This document shows, one piece after another, positions 7,575-13,505 of a stretch of DNA of 64,000 nucleotides. The stretch comes from Pedobacter sp. HMWF019 (GTDB taxonomy: Bacteria; Bacteroidota; Bacteroidia; Sphingobacteriales; Sphingobacteriaceae), in the NCBI RefSeq assembly GCF_003061025.1, contig NZ_QAIL01000086.1:1-64000 (forward strand). Reading direction: 5' to 3'. Below the pieces are notes generated by a model. The model saw only the letters and a list, made by a program, of their open reading frames with translations. It was not told where the DNA came from and ran no database searches. Position 1 is the first letter of the stretch; each line of letters starts with the position of its first letter. The position numbers and the translations under genes are program-made.

Positions 7575-8513
7575 CTATTCGCACTGCCATACCGTATCAA
7601 GGAACCAATGCCGGGAATCGAAGAAATGATTAACGGGCTTGAACCCAGAATTAAAAGCCATGGATTCAGTCTCCTCTACACTGTATTTCTGAGAGATTTC
7701 CATAGAAATATATTCATCTTTTTCAAAAGTAAACACCTTCCCTTCAATACAAACTTCCTGTTTGGCAAGGCTAATCAGATAGCTTCTGCAGGCCCCTGTT
7801 GCAGGGTCATAAGAGGGATAATGATCAAATTGCTCTAACACAAAATTACCCCCTAACTCCCGGTTGATCCGGTTAAGCAAATTTAGGTTAAAGGCCCTGG
7901 TAAAGCCCTGAGCATCATTATAGGCTTTTCTGATCACGTCAGGATGTTTTTTTAAATCAAAGCCTATCATTAACACATCACCTTTTTGTAAATAAGACCT
8001 CAGTTCTCTGCAAAAGTCAAGCGCAGCATTTGTTTCAAAATTTCCTATAGTCCCTCCTAAAAAAAGAATAACTTTTCTTTTGGGAGAAATCTGACTGGCG
8101 TGGGTAAGCATTTCAAAATACTCTCCATTCAGGCCCTTCACCTTTAAGCCAGGTATTTCCTCGGGTAATTGTTTTTCCAGATGCCCAATCATATCTGCCG
8201 AAATATCAATAGGCATGTAAGTAAAATCAAACTTTTTCCTAAGCATTTCCTTTAACAAATAACTGGATTTAGTCGCATCTCCTGCCCCCATTTCAATCAG
8301 ATCAAAGGTATCAAAGCCATTTTTTAGCACCCTAGCTAACTCTGTTGTCTTATGCTGAAAAATCTCCAGTTCACAATTGGTTGGATAGTATTCTTCACAA
8401 TTCATAATTTGCTGAAAAATCCCATCTCCAGTATGATCATAGAAATATTTAGAATTTAATCGTTTGGGCGTCTCTCCAAGATCCTGGAGTACATCTTTTA
8501 AAAACTGCTTCAT
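7575..8513 (-). CDS. egtD: EgtD-like L-histidine N-alpha-methyltransferase
   Basis: A 312-residue SAM-dependent methyltransferase of the EgtD family (DUF2260), close to the usual ~320. Family signatures are in order: Y-F-Y-D-H-T-G-D at 23-30, E-E-Y-Y-P-T at 40-45, a SAM loop E-M-G-A-G-D near 74-79, G-G-T-I-G-N-F at 153-159, and A-Y-N-D...F-N-L-N-L-L-N-R-I-N-R-E-L around 197-220. Near the C-terminus comes M-E-I-S-Q-K-Y (Glu272, Ser274), matching the Glu/Ser pair that holds histidine in characterised EgtD. Such enzymes trimethylate histidine to hercynine, the first step of ergothioneine synthesis. It is the last gene of a compact minus-strand operon, 5 bp after egtB. Confidence 0.9.
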   Translation of the reverse strand: MKQFLKDVLQDLGETPKRLNSKYFYDHTGDGIFQQIMNCEEYYPTNCELEIFQHKTTELARVLKNGFDTFDLIEMGAGDATKSSYLLKEMLRKKFDFTYMPIDISADMIGHLEKQLPEEIPGLKVKGLNGEYFEMLTHASQISPKRKVILFLGGTIGNFETNAALDFCRELRSYLQKGDVLMIGFDLKKHPDVIRKAYNDAQGFTRAFNLNLLNRINRELGGNFVLEQFDHYPSYDPATGACRSYLISLAKQEVCIEGKVFTFEKDEYISMEISQKYSVEETESMAFNSGFKPVNHFFDSRHWFLDTVWQCE

Positions 8514-8518
8514 ACAGA

Positions 8519-9670
8519 TTACTTTACGAGCCTGATGCCACTAAACATCCAGCGCAAATGAGGGTGAAAAAAATTACGATAAGTTTTCCGACTGTGCGAA
8601 TTTGAAGTTGCAACGGAAGCCCCCCTCAGTACTTTCTGGTTCACCATAAACTTACCATTGTATTCGCCTAAAGCTCCTGGAGCTTTTGAAAAACCCGGAT
8701 AAGGCAAATACGCACTTTCGGTCCACTCCCAAAGTTGCCCCCATTTCAATTGATCTGCAGCCGCTTCCCACTCAAATTCTGTTGGTAATCGCATTCCCTT
8801 CCACTGAGCAAAAGCCGCTGCCTCATAAAAACTCACATGGCACACAGGCTCCTCGGGTTTTAAACGATTCAGGCCTGATAAACCATAGCGATACCATGCA
8901 CCATCAATCAAATGCCAATACAAAGGCGCAGAGATATTGTTATTGTTAACCCAGTCCCAACCTTCTGCATGCCAGAAACTAAAATCCCGGTATCCGCCCT
9001 GATCTACAAACTCTTCATATTCCGAATTTGTTACCAGTTCAGTAGACAAAGAAACTGCCTGAAGATAAACCTTGTGGGCATTCAGCTCATTATCAAAACA
9101 AAAGTCATTACCCTTATAACCAATCTCATATATACCCTCTTCTATATCTGCCATTATTGATTTGGCAGCTAAAAATTCCTGTTCAATATTCTCCCTACGG
9201 TAAGGCGGAAATAACGGATTATGCCCTAAAATATATTTGATGTCATACCATAACAATTCCTGATGCTGCTGCTCATGATTTAGACCAAGCAAAATCAGCT
9301 CCTTTAAATGATCGCTTTCTGGTTCTCGGGAGAGAAAGTGCGACATCGCCTCATCCACATAAGCACGATATTTGTACACCTCATCCACTGTAGGACGGCT
9401 TAAATTACCCCGATCGGTTCTGATCACCCGTGCTCCAATCGCCTCATAGTAACTATTAAACACATAATTAAAATCCGGATTATAGACCTGGTAACCCGTA
9501 AAAAAAGGCATCAGGATAAAGGTTTCAAAAAACCAGGTTGTATGGCCAAGGTGCCATTTAGGCGGGCTAACGTCTACAACCGGCTGCACCACATAATCTT
9601 CCTTTTCAAGATCGGAACAGATACTGGTGGTCATGGCCCTTACGGCCAGATACTGTTTCAAAAATGACAT
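8519..9670 (-). CDS. egtB: EgtB-like non-heme iron sulfoxide synthase
   Basis: A 383-residue protein with an N-terminal DinB-like half and a C-terminal formylglycine-generating-enzyme (FGE/sulfatase-modifying) fold, the EgtB architecture. The three-His iron site is visible: His43 in W-H-L-G-H-T-T-W-F, and His132/His136 in N-H-E-Q-Q-H-Q-E-L. The C-terminal half has L-W-E-W-T-E-S-A-Y and ends R-W-M-F-S-G-I-R-L. EgtB joins a thiol to hercynine using oxygen. Type I uses gamma-glutamyl-cysteine and type II uses cysteine. No egtC is nearby, so a cysteine-using enzyme is possible but not shown. It sits 1 bp after the permease gene and 5 bp before egtD. Confidence 0.9.
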
Positions 9671-9671
9671 A

Positions 9672-11240
9672 TCAATTCTCGTTTAAATGATGAACCAAGT
9701 CCGTTATGCTTTTAATATTCAAATTGGCCGCCTGTTTTCGTCTCATCATTAAAGCATAACTATTATTAAAGCCAATAGGTTTTAACCAAGTGAGATTAAA
9801 TTGATGGTTGAACTCTTTTTTCACATAATTAAACACAGCATCCTTATCTTTTGGGATCCCATTGAGCACAGATGGAGAAGGATGTAAGATCACCAGTAAA
9901 CCTGTTCCTGTATACTCAGGATAAAGGTCTATCTGATCGTTCTTAAGTGCATCAAAACAAATCTGAGTGCCCCCAAGTCCTGTTTTGGTTTCCACATCCA
10001 GATGGGAATACCCTCTAATCAGCATTTTATACATTTGGGCCAAAATATACTGTTCTCCAAATACCTTTGACCCTATTCTGATTATCCCTTTCCCCCCGGG
10101 TAAAGCGGGCTGCAGCAAATGATGAGCAGACAGGAAATCTGAAGCGACTTTCTCCGGGCTTTGTTTCAATTTATCCACATCATAATTCAACCTGGTCATC
10201 TCTTCATCATTCAGCAGACCCGACAGCTTATTTAAAACCATTTCCAACTCAGGATACTTTTTTAATACAGCCTGCCGGACAACAGGCGCAGCATAATAGG
10301 GAGGAAAAATATGTTGATCATCTTTAAGAGTTACCAGATCAAATGCCTTTAACCTTCCATCTGTACTGTAGCCATCAATTACATCCAGTTTTCCTTCATA
10401 TGCAGCCTTATATTTTACTGCATCACTGATCACTACAGTTTCAATTTTCAATTTATATACCTCCTTTAAACCTATATATCCATCCTGGCGGCCCATAAAT
10501 TCAGGCGTAAAGCCTGCCAGCATCCGACCACCTATTTTAGAGGGCAAAAAATAAAAAGAGCACAATAAAACAAACAAAAAAGGCAAAATAAGATAAACCA
10601 TTCTCACCCGCTTTAAACTTAATTGCTGTACACGTGACAGCAAAAAATCCAGCATAACAGCAAGTAAAGCCGCGGGAATAGCACCTGCCAGGATCATATT
10701 TGAATTATTCAATGCAATCCCACCGAAAATAAACTCACCCAGCCCGCCCGCAGCGATATATGCAGCTAAAGTAGCCACCCCTACATTAATTACAGTAGCC
10801 GTCCTTATACCCGCCATCAGCACAGGAAAAGCAAGTGGTAGTTCCACTTTAATTAAAATCTGCCAATTGCTCATTCCCATTCCTTTAGCTGCATCTACCA
10901 CAACCGGATCTACACCCGTAATTCCTGTATAGGTATTTCTGATCACTGGCAGCAGCGCATATAAAAACAAGGCCAGAATTGCAGGTTTTGGACCAATTCC
11001 CAAAAAAGGGATCATAATCCCCAATAGAGCAATACTTGGAATGGTTTGGAGAATTCCGGCAAATCCAAGTACCGGACCAGAAAACCTCCTTCTCCTGGCA
11101 ATCCAAATACCCAAGGGCACAGCTATAGCAATAGCAAATACCATAGACAATAGAGTCAAACTGATATGTGTTAGCGTCTGACTAAACAGCTTTCCAGACT
11201 GCTGCACCATAAATTGTCCTAAACTTTGAGATTCCTCCAT
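9672..11240 (-). CDS. ABC permease fused to betaine-type solute-binding domain (EgtU/OpuC-like, permuted)
   Basis: A 522-residue fusion. Residues about 20-210 form a BPD_transp_1 permease domain with several membrane helices and an E-A-A-like loop (V-D-A-A-K-G-M-G-M). A last helix at about 215-234 is followed by a periplasmic type-F solute-binding domain. Its pieces run in an unusual order: [13 protein letters not shown] to [10 protein letters not shown] (about 243-378) come first, then [24 protein letters not shown] and G-F-N-N-S-Y-A-L (about 388-497). In OpuBC-type proteins the second block precedes the first. Permease-binding-protein fusions such as EgtU import ergothioneine, itself a histidine betaine. 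Its place between the ATPase gene and egtB supports that substrate. Choline or glycine betaine remain alternatives. Confidence 0.85.
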
Positions 11241-11244
11241 CGCT

Positions 11245-12072
11245 TTATCCCTCCAAAGTAAATAAGATTTCCTTTAATTTACCCAGCTCCAGCTGCTCCA
11301 GCAACTCCCAAGCCGTATGCCCACCCATTTTTAAAAATTTCAATTCGAGAAGTAATTTGTGCTCCTTCAAAAAAGATGCTACAAATGCACTTTGGGGTTT
11401 AAACAGCAACTCTTCTGGTGTTCCATACTGCATCACCTTGCCCTTATCCATCAAACAAATTTTGTCGCCCATTTCAAATGCTTCCTGTATATCATGTGTA
11501 ACCAGAATGATGGTTTTTTTAGCCAATTCATCCAGCTCGGTAAATTCCCTCCGTATATCCGCCCGGGTAATATTATCCAAAGCACCGAATGGTTCATCCA
11601 TGAGTAATATCGGAGGATCTGCCATGAGTGCCCTTGCAAGTCCTACCCGTTGCTGCTGTCCACCACTCAAAGCCGATGGATATTGTTTTCCCAATGTACT
11701 GTCCAGCTTCAATTTATCCAGCAATTCCATACTCCTGTTCCTGATCTTTTCTTTATCCCATTCCAACAATTTAGGTACAACAGACATGTTTTCTAAAACC
11801 GTATAATGAGGAAACAGGCCATGATTTTGCAGTACATACCCTATACGTCTTCGCAACAGCTCTGGCTGCTGTCCACCTACATTTTCCTGATCAATATAAA
11901 CTGAACCACCATCGGGTTCAATGAGCCGGTTTATCATGCGCAAAGTGGTCGTTTTACCGCATCCGCTGGTCCCTAAAAGAACCATTGTCTCCCCCACACC
12001 AACTTCAAAACTGATTTGGTCAACAGCCAATTTACCATCAAATTTCTTACTCAGGTTTTCAACTTTAATCAT
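11245..12072 (-). CDS. ABC transporter ATPase, EgtV/OpuCA-like
   Basis: A 275-residue ATP-binding subunit. Walker A G-T-S-G-C-G-K-T (34-41), Q-loop Gln82 in V-L-Q-N-H-G-L-F-P, signature L-S-G-G-Q-Q-Q-R (135-142), Walker B I-L-L-M-D-E-P (155-161), and switch His in L-V-T-H-D. The sequence is of the quaternary-amine (OpuCA/ProV) type. It is shorter than OpuCA, because the C-terminal CBS domains that sense osmolarity are absent. This resembles EgtV more than an osmotic-stress transporter. Its start overlaps the end of the oxidoreductase gene by 8 bp and it precedes the permease gene by 4 bp, implying translational coupling. Confidence 0.9.
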   Translation of the reverse strand: MIKVENLSKKFDGKLAVDQISFEVGVGETMVLLGTSGCGKTTTLRMINRLIEPDGGSVYIDQENVGGQQPELLRRRIGYVLQNHGLFPHYTVLENMSVVPKLLEWDKEKIRNRSMELLDKLKLDSTLGKQYPSALSGGQQQRVGLARALMADPPILLMDEPFGALDNITRADIRREFTELDELAKKTIILVTHDIQEAFEMGDKICLMDKGKVMQYGTPEELLFKPQSAFVASFLKEHKLLLELKFLKMGGHTAWELLEQLELGKLKEILFTLEG

Positions 12073-13447
12073 CTAGCGACATAAAAAGGTTATTCAAAGA
12101 TTCTGCATATAAGGGATGAGCAAAGATCATTTTCCTGATTTGGTCATAGGTAATCTTACCCACCATAGCCATCTGTAAGATAGACATAATTTCGCCACCC
12201 TGTTCACCAATTACTGCAGCGCCAAGCAGTAATTTCGTCTTTTTATCTGCAATCGCTTTCATGAAACCTCTGGTTTCGTCATTTTCCAGCGCCCGGGCTA
12301 CATTTCTCATTGGAATTTTAGCAACAACAATATCCAGACCCAATTCTTTTGCCTGCAGCTCATTAAGACCTACTCTGCCCAACTGAGGATCTGTAAACAT
12401 ACAATAAGGTAATAGTCGTCCTTTAATTCCTTTTTTCTCTCCATGCAATAAAAGATCGATCAAGATCAGATGATCATTATAGGCAATATGCGTAAATGCA
12501 GGACCACCCTTTACATCTCCAAGTGCATATACCCCCTTTACTGCGGTTTCCAAATGGTCATTGACCTTGATGTATCCCCGGTCGTCGCGAACTATACCCG
12601 TATTTTCTAATCCAAGCATCCTGGTCTGCGGATCCCTGCCAGAAGCTATTAATACATGACTGCACAACTGCGTTGCCTCTTGTCCATCAGTTAAAGTACT
12701 CACTCGAATTCTGGTTTCGCCATAATTTTCGAATCTGATAGCCTTGGTCTCTAACAATACTTTTATTCCCTCTTCCTGAAAAACAGTACTCATCTCCCTG
12801 CAAACATCTTCATCTTCATGCGGCAGCAAACGATCGCCTTGTTCCAGCAGGGTCACTTCTGCACCAAACCGTCTGAACATTTGCCCAAACTCCAGCCCGA
12901 TATAACCGCCACCGACAATCAACAGATGAGATGGAACCTCCTCTAATTCCATAATAGAGGTAGAAGTAAGGAATTTAATTTCAGAAAGTCCTTCGATTTG
13001 AGGAATGAGTGGCAAGGCACCGGTGTTGATAAAGATATGTTTAGCCTCAAAAACATCTGCTCTGTCCGCCTTCATTACCTGTATCTGATGATCAGCTATA
13101 AATTTAGCTTCTCCATACACTACACTTAAATTTGGAGTCTTTTCTATGCCACGGACAGCACCCTCCCTAAATAAAGAGACCAGATGGTTTTTCCGCTGCA
13201 TCACTGTCTTAAAGTTTAATCTGTAGGCAGGAATATCAACACCCAGATCTTTGCTTTTTCCAGCCAGATAAGCCATCCTGGCAGAAGCAACCATCGTTTT
13301 TGTTGGTGTACACCCATCATTGATACAGGTTCCACCTATCCATCTCTTTTCGATCAGAACTGTTCTCCAGCCTGCAGCAGCCAGCTTTTTGGCCAATGGT
13401 ACGCCAGCCTGTCCTGCACCAATTACAATTGCGTCAAATGATTTCAT
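12065..13447 (-). CDS. FAD-dependent pyridine nucleotide-disulfide oxidoreductase
   Basis: A 460-residue flavoenzyme of the glutathione reductase/dihydrolipoamide dehydrogenase family. FAD loop G-A-G-Q-A-G (10-15), redox-active disulfide C-I-N-D-G-C (Cys41, Cys46), NAD(P) loop G-G-G-Y-I-G-L-E near 170, second FAD motif A-L-G-D-V-K near 300, and dimer-interface catalytic motif H-P-L-Y-A-E near the C-terminus. It lacks the N-terminal HMA domain and the C-terminal paired cysteines of mercuric reductase, so that common label probably does not apply. It is the first gene of the tightly coupled block that also encodes the betaine-type ABC system, EgtB and EgtD. A role in reducing a thiol disulfide, perhaps that of ergothioneine, is an inference from context. 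Confidence 0.88.
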   Translation of the reverse strand: MKSFDAIVIGAGQAGVPLAKKLAAAGWRTVLIEKRWIGGTCINDGCTPTKTMVASARMAYLAGKSKDLGVDIPAYRLNFKTVMQRKNHLVSLFREGAVRGIEKTPNLSVVYGEAKFIADHQIQVMKADRADVFEAKHIFINTGALPLIPQIEGLSEIKFLTSTSIMELEEVPSHLLIVGGGYIGLEFGQMFRRFGAEVTLLEQGDRLLPHEDEDVCREMSTVFQEEGIKVLLETKAIRFENYGETRIRVSTLTDGQEATQLCSHVLIASGRDPQTRMLGLENTGIVRDDRGYIKVNDHLETAVKGVYALGDVKGGPAFTHIAYNDHLILIDLLLHGEKKGIKGRLLPYCMFTDPQLGRVGLNELQAKELGLDIVVAKIPMRNVARALENDETRGFMKAIADKKTKLLLGAAVIGEQGGEIMSILQMAMVGKITYDQIRKMIFAHPLYAESLNNLFMSLDD

Positions 13448-13505
13448 GAACATATAACAACGTTCACATCAAATTGTCAGCATTTTTTTTTTTAAAAACC
13501 TCTAA

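Follow-up and report, generated by a model that had tools for sequence, protein, structure and literature searches.

The fused permease and the order of its binding-domain halves

The window, a 64,000-nucleotide stretch of a Pedobacter sp. HMWF019 contig, encodes an ABC importer permease fused to a solute-binding domain (SBD), and the question raised by this locus is whether the two halves of the SBD stand in reversed order and, if so, what the reversal means for the importer. Few natural circular permutants show clear sequence homology on both sides. As a whole, our best explanation, to which we assign a probability of roughly 0.7, is that the protein would form a type I importer with a cluster F-III SBD that underwent one old permutation, is tethered in a functionally neutral way, and may import ergothioneine or a related betaine.

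The 522-residue chain combines BPD_transp_1 (Pfam, residues 40-213) with a binding domain, and its gene adjoins that of an ATPase, as in type I ABC importers with a fused SBD (Table 1). Structural matches of the modeled membrane domain were the membrane domains of OpuA, NrtB/CmpB and MetI. The extra membrane helix TM6, which corresponds to helix 209-231 of the AlphaFold2 model, is separated from the first SBD strand by about 6 residues; most homologues likewise have a hydrophobic segment followed by 5-10 residues ahead of the SBD.

Table 1. Coordinates of the fused importer gene, its domains and the neighboring genes in the window (residue numbers refer to the 522-aa protein)
Feature	Position	Strand	Basis or remarks
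Fused permease-SBD ORF	9672-11240	minus	522 aa, ATG start, no interruption
Membrane domain, residues 1-212, type I ABC importer permease fold	10605..11240	minus	PF00528, 84 bits; structural match
TM6, extra C-terminal membrane helix, residues 213-232	10545..10604	minus	model helix; hydrophobic segment in homologues
SBD block B, residues 235-376, canonical second half	10113..10538	minus	starts in lobe D2; Pfam, phmmer, Smith-Waterman
Linker bridging the former termini, residues 377-386, 10 aa	10083..10112	minus	conserved spacing
SBD block A, residues 387-522, canonical first half	9675..10082	minus	Pfam, phmmer, Smith-Waterman
ATP-binding subunit of the importer	11245..12072	minus	PF00005; top NCBIfam TIGR01186 (proV), 287 bits, below cut-off of 326.6
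EgtB, ergothioneine sulfoxide synthase	8519..9670	minus	TIGR03440, 536 bits, cut-off 360
EgtD, histidine N-alpha-methyltransferase	7575..8513	minus	PF10017, 323 bits; TIGR03438, 288.2, below cut-off of 290.9
Pyridine-nucleotide-disulfide oxidoreductase, first gene of the operon	12065..13453	minus	PF07992, PF02852

The binding domain belongs to PF04069 (OpuAC; 197 bits against a cut-off of 21.2), matching it in two swapped stretches: residues 242-371 aligned with profile positions 117-256, and the later stretch (window 9687-10082) aligned with positions 3-111. Comparison by phmmer with Streptococcus pneumoniae EgtUC (chain 9egi_A) gave the same reversal, with residues 235-376 matching chain positions 134-275 (122.9 bits) and residues 388-515 matching positions 9-132 (70.3 bits). 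In Smith-Waterman alignments to EgtUC (BLOSUM62), the gene order B-A scored 331 over 142 aa and the restored order A+B scored 527 over 266 aa with 40% identity, while the top score of 200 shuffled controls was 49. When all 290 cyclic rotations were tested, the best one began at residue 388, and the gene order ranked 249th. The B-A order of the SBD is therefore real, well outside what chance would give. Mapped by the phmmer alignment, the cut corresponds to EgtUC residues of approximately 361-363 and lies within lobe D2 (341-432 according to the EgtU paper, PMC9732360); block A stops in the same lobe, just past an ITDL motif. The first-pass annotation had described the rearrangement as a clean circular permutation whose break lies in the second lobe, and both points held up in the alignment to EgtU that it had suggested, in which the order was not canonical but reversed; its blocks (residues 243-378 and 388-522) and its PGGKG linker, inside residues 377-386, were correct, give or take a few residues. 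The span across the linker, measured from the VA..FL motif to the IGSK-type motif, was 16 residues in 20 of the 22 homologues measured, although the linker sequence varies among them, as expected of a bridge with a fixed span.

Occurrence of the permuted order among relatives

The search for homologs with the same order, also proposed at the outset, was productive: among the loci fetched, 132 ORFs have the B-A order. On GTDB contigs, 266 candidate stretches encode relatives, and each of the 80 loci kept, which count toward this total, has the membrane domain (TMD) followed by B and A; these belong to Pedobacter, Mucilaginibacter, Chitinophagaceae and allied metagenome-assembled genomes. Errors of assembly or sequencing, or decay of the gene, could in principle mimic a permutation, and the assembly that holds the window is itself fragmented (624 contigs). 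Nothing was found to support such an origin, and against it stand the recurrence of the order in 132 ORFs from independent assemblies, isolates included, and the invariance of the binding residues across the permuted proteins, so that its probability is practically nil. An artefact or frameshift was thus ruled out by the conservation of the order in independent assemblies.

Sampling of 395 Bacteroidota genomes found the permuted form in 22 and the canonical order in 31; none carried both, where chance alone would give just 1-2 such genomes. The canonical Bacteroidota proteins fetched from this sample are of the form A-B-TMD, in which the SBD precedes the membrane domain, and TMD-A-B proteins were found in Niallia, a Fusobacteria plasmid, Lentilactobacillus, Synechocystis and Sphingomonas. 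The existence of these two forms confirms that the permuted order is not the normal one for all fused relatives. Phyla beyond Bacteroidota were covered via plasmid records only, and none of the plasmid matches inspected there was TMD-B-A; a Sinorhizobium match that seemingly spanned the junction proved to be two separate genes. In a genus-level group (f72/g188), the membrane protein and a canonical lipoprotein-like binding protein are separate adjoining genes. The g188 loci (L219-L223) form an unfused operon of ATPase, membrane protein and canonical binding protein, and their SBDs are the closest canonical SBDs found to the permuted ones (46-48% identity per half). The Bacteroidota A-B-TMD and unfused g188 operons share homologous membrane domains, SBDs and ATPases with the permuted operon, and some lie beside EgtB/EgtD; they differ in that the SBD is N-terminal or separate and, in the set seen, never permuted. 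Annotation pipelines give the fused protein a generic permease/substrate-binding protein label, by which the swap is overlooked.

Origin of the permutation

In a tree of SBDs with their order restored, the permuted proteins formed one clade (ultrafast bootstrap 95, SH-aLRT 94), which shows a single origin within the sampled SBDs. The membrane-domain tree gave this clade little support (32/71) and did not conflict with the SBD tree; there, the permuted group sits with TMD-A-B and unfused forms, apart from A-B-TMD proteins. The simplest account is that the rearrangement happened once, in an ancestor that was either C-terminally fused or unfused. Descent from the Bacteroidota A-B-TMD form was considered and rejected, as that group stands apart in the membrane-domain tree (100/100 for its main part). 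The intermediates A-B-A and A-B-A-B, as well as a Bacteroidota TMD-A-B form, were absent from the approximately 730 genomes searched with the SBD or the full protein. We infer that one old event would have shifted the SBD termini out of lobe D1 and into lobe D2, at the site related to the old one by pseudo-symmetry; the simplest route would be a tandem duplication, or a fusion, after which the outer halves were lost.

Another class of the phylum also has a permuted operon that includes EgtB and EgtD (L224, 3927-5537). Its protein groups with those of Chitinophagaceae in the tree (90/89), pointing to probable horizontal transfer.

OpuA has the same chain order, probably by a separate route

AlphaFold2 models were built with permuted homologues as input and without templates, giving a pLDDT of 74 for the full-length chain and a pLDDT of 90.8 and pTM of 0.87 for the SBD alone. 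The solved SBD closest to the SBD model in chain order was Bacillus subtilis OpuAC (2b4m), which aligned with it end to end at Z 20.5 over 244 residues with 14% identity; the next unrelated folds were at Z 10.5. The full-chain model aligned with Lactococcus lactis OpuA (7ahh) in the same domain order, residues 16-515 with 89-533 at Z 20.6. By Foldseek, the SBD model matched EgtUC at 42-43% identity over one half only (~140 residues); an end-to-end alignment to EgtUC in gene order covered 186 residues at Z 9.1 and 13% identity, a score due to the internal pseudo-symmetry of such domains. By structural alignment (Z ~20), OpuAC (2b4l/2b4m) and OpuA (7ahc/7ahd/7ahh) have the SBD chain order B-A with the tether at the start of the SBD, and OpuA also shares the TMD-SBD layout, the anchoring helix and the short tether. 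The arrangement is hence not unique to this protein, a precedent that its first description did not mention. Circular permutation among glycine-betaine-binding proteins (2b4l, 1r9l and 1sw1) was reported with CPSARST in 2008 (PMC2395249), so this kind of event is already known; no description of this permutation in EgtU-like proteins was found in open-access texts.

Could the chain order have been inherited from OpuA/OpuAC, making the protein an OpuA type or a hybrid rather than an independent permutation? The end-to-end alignment of the model with both proteins would fit such descent. However, a profile of the permuted SBDs retrieved EgtUC at 1.7e-69, with EgtUC, OpuBC and AfProX spanning 1e-69 to 1e-47, all in two swapped halves; OpuAC chains were absent up to E = 10. 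Moreover, the SBD is just 14% identical to OpuAC in the structural alignment, and its binding residues form the tyrosine cage seen in the EgtU/AfProX class, whereas the OpuA/OpuAC pocket is built of tryptophans. Membership in OpuA by descent was rejected on the sequence profile, and inheritance of the order appears very improbable. A protein that joins OpuA chain order to EgtU-class sequence is most likely the product of a second permutation at the same place, and we favor, with some reserve, the view that this permutation occurred independently in the betaine-binding SBD superfamily and converged on exactly the cut of OpuA. The protein is an evolutionary variant with OpuA-type chain order, not a new kind of machine.

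Tethering and docking of the permuted domain

The SBD belongs to the quaternary-ammonium cluster F-III (EgtU, OpuBC and AfProX), and two fused membrane-SBD chains would pair with two copies of the adjoining ATPase (11245-12072) in a type I importer like OpuA. Relative to EgtU, TM6 tethers D2 in place of D1, in keeping with the earlier proposal that the membrane anchor had moved on the binding domain. In OpuA, every SBD hangs from an anchoring helix via an 11-residue linker, and of the two lobes of a single docked SBD, one is contacted by Val149 of the first membrane subunit and the other by Val149 of the second (PMC11065425). Given the two-fold symmetry of the membrane dimer and the pseudo-two-fold symmetry of the SBD, either lobe may serve as the tethered one, and the docked complex and its closing motion would stay essentially unchanged, as in OpuA. 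The permuted SBD would then dock half a circle turned relative to its own subunit, presenting the same surface; by analogy with OpuA, we infer such symmetric docking for the 522-aa protein. A swap of the tethered lobe can be neutral because the lobes of OpuA contact identical subunits equivalently.

The same shift of the tether to D2 had led the first-pass annotation to suggest that ligand closure might be passed differently to the permease, which would amount to a form of regulation absent from canonical EgtU. This idea found no support: OpuA, with the same tether point, works as an ordinary type I importer, its docking touches both lobes equivalently, and tethers are similarly short in the two groups (5-10 residues in most permuted proteins and 7-12 in canonical ones). 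With symmetry-based docking and tethers of like length, the swap would be tolerable and gives no reason for new coupling, and we hold altered coupling to be improbable. A second permutation that converged on the cut of OpuA would amount to an experiment of nature, in which either lobe of a tethered SBD is seen to be able to face its own permease subunit, since docking is pseudo-symmetric. The importer family occurs in four forms, i.e., canonical N-fused, canonical C-fused, canonical unfused and permuted C-fused, which makes tolerance of the lobe swap and symmetric docking of tethered SBDs directly testable.

Binding pocket, operon and predicted substrate

EgtU of S. pneumoniae (EgtUBC; SBD 7txk/7txl/9egi) likewise joins a membrane domain to a C-terminal cluster F-III SBD, which is approximately 40% identical to that of the 522-aa protein with the order restored and has most cage and carboxylate residues in common with it, but EgtU has the canonical A-B order and a D1 tether. 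The equivalents of EgtU K242, T275, T296, N339, Y341, E375, R379 and Y443 are invariant in all 29 permuted representatives, and that of Y419 is kept in 28 of the 29; the window protein has both the EgtU cage (Y341, Y419, Y443 and N339) and the carboxylate ligands (K242, T296 and R379). It lacks the EgtU markers, G244 and the F293/Y337 switch, and carries F, Y and F at these three positions; across the permuted clade they are F or Q, Y and F, as in the glycine-betaine-type AfProX. G244 and the F293/Y337 pair have been named the ergothioneine determinants of EgtU, and EgtU-specific homologues have been reported nearly exclusively from Firmicutes (PMC9732360). Because these determinants are replaced as in AfProX, we do not call the protein EgtU, and its binding of ergothioneine is not assured.

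The genes are ordered oxidoreductase, ATPase, TMD-SBD, EgtB and EgtD, with gaps of a few bases or overlap. Unlike EgtU, the protein is thus encoded with EgtB and EgtD, apparently in an ergothioneine producer, and the operon is, on the strength of these two gene assignments, a predicted ergothioneine-making one. Enough flank was available for 81 permuted loci, of which 73 have EgtB nearby and 74 have EgtD, and the oxidoreductase gene heads the operon in 66; EgtB lies near 6 of 26 canonical A-B-TMD loci, the loci in both counts not being independent. Sigma-70 and terminator scans of the operon gave scores below or near shuffled expectation.

We lean toward a predicted role in the uptake of ergothioneine or of a histidine betaine, for example hercynine. 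Alternatively, the protein may be a general osmoprotectant importer (glycine betaine, choline or carnitine) that the ergothioneine genes adjoin for another reason, as its pocket, with Y293, F337 and F244 as in AfProX and without the EgtU markers, would allow; in addition, EgtB/EgtD are absent from the visible flank in 7 of the 81 permuted loci. Arguing against this are the tight operon with EgtB and EgtD, kept in most permuted loci, the invariance in the permuted set of E375 and T275, both thioimidazole contacts in EgtUC, and the fact that another contig of the genome encodes a separate OpuAC-type binding protein, canonical in order, beside a permease. General osmoprotectant import thus seems rather unlikely. 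The family points to an importer linked to ergothioneine, as yet unstudied, among soil Bacteroidota with genes for ergothioneine biosynthesis.

The separate OpuAC-type protein (G000:C183, 6008-7439; L001, L026) represents a second betaine-type importer. The oxidoreductase gene (12065-13453) overlaps the ATPase gene, and the top NCBIfam match of its product is a generic FAD-containing oxidoreductase, below the cut-off; in a putative role, it could act on oxidized ergothioneine. On a Lentilactobacillus plasmid, an EgtU-like fusion (L189, 959-2293) also adjoins an NAD(P)/FAD-dependent oxidoreductase, which is just 27% identical to the window's protein, possibly an independent pairing of an EgtU-like importer with a disulfide-type reductase.
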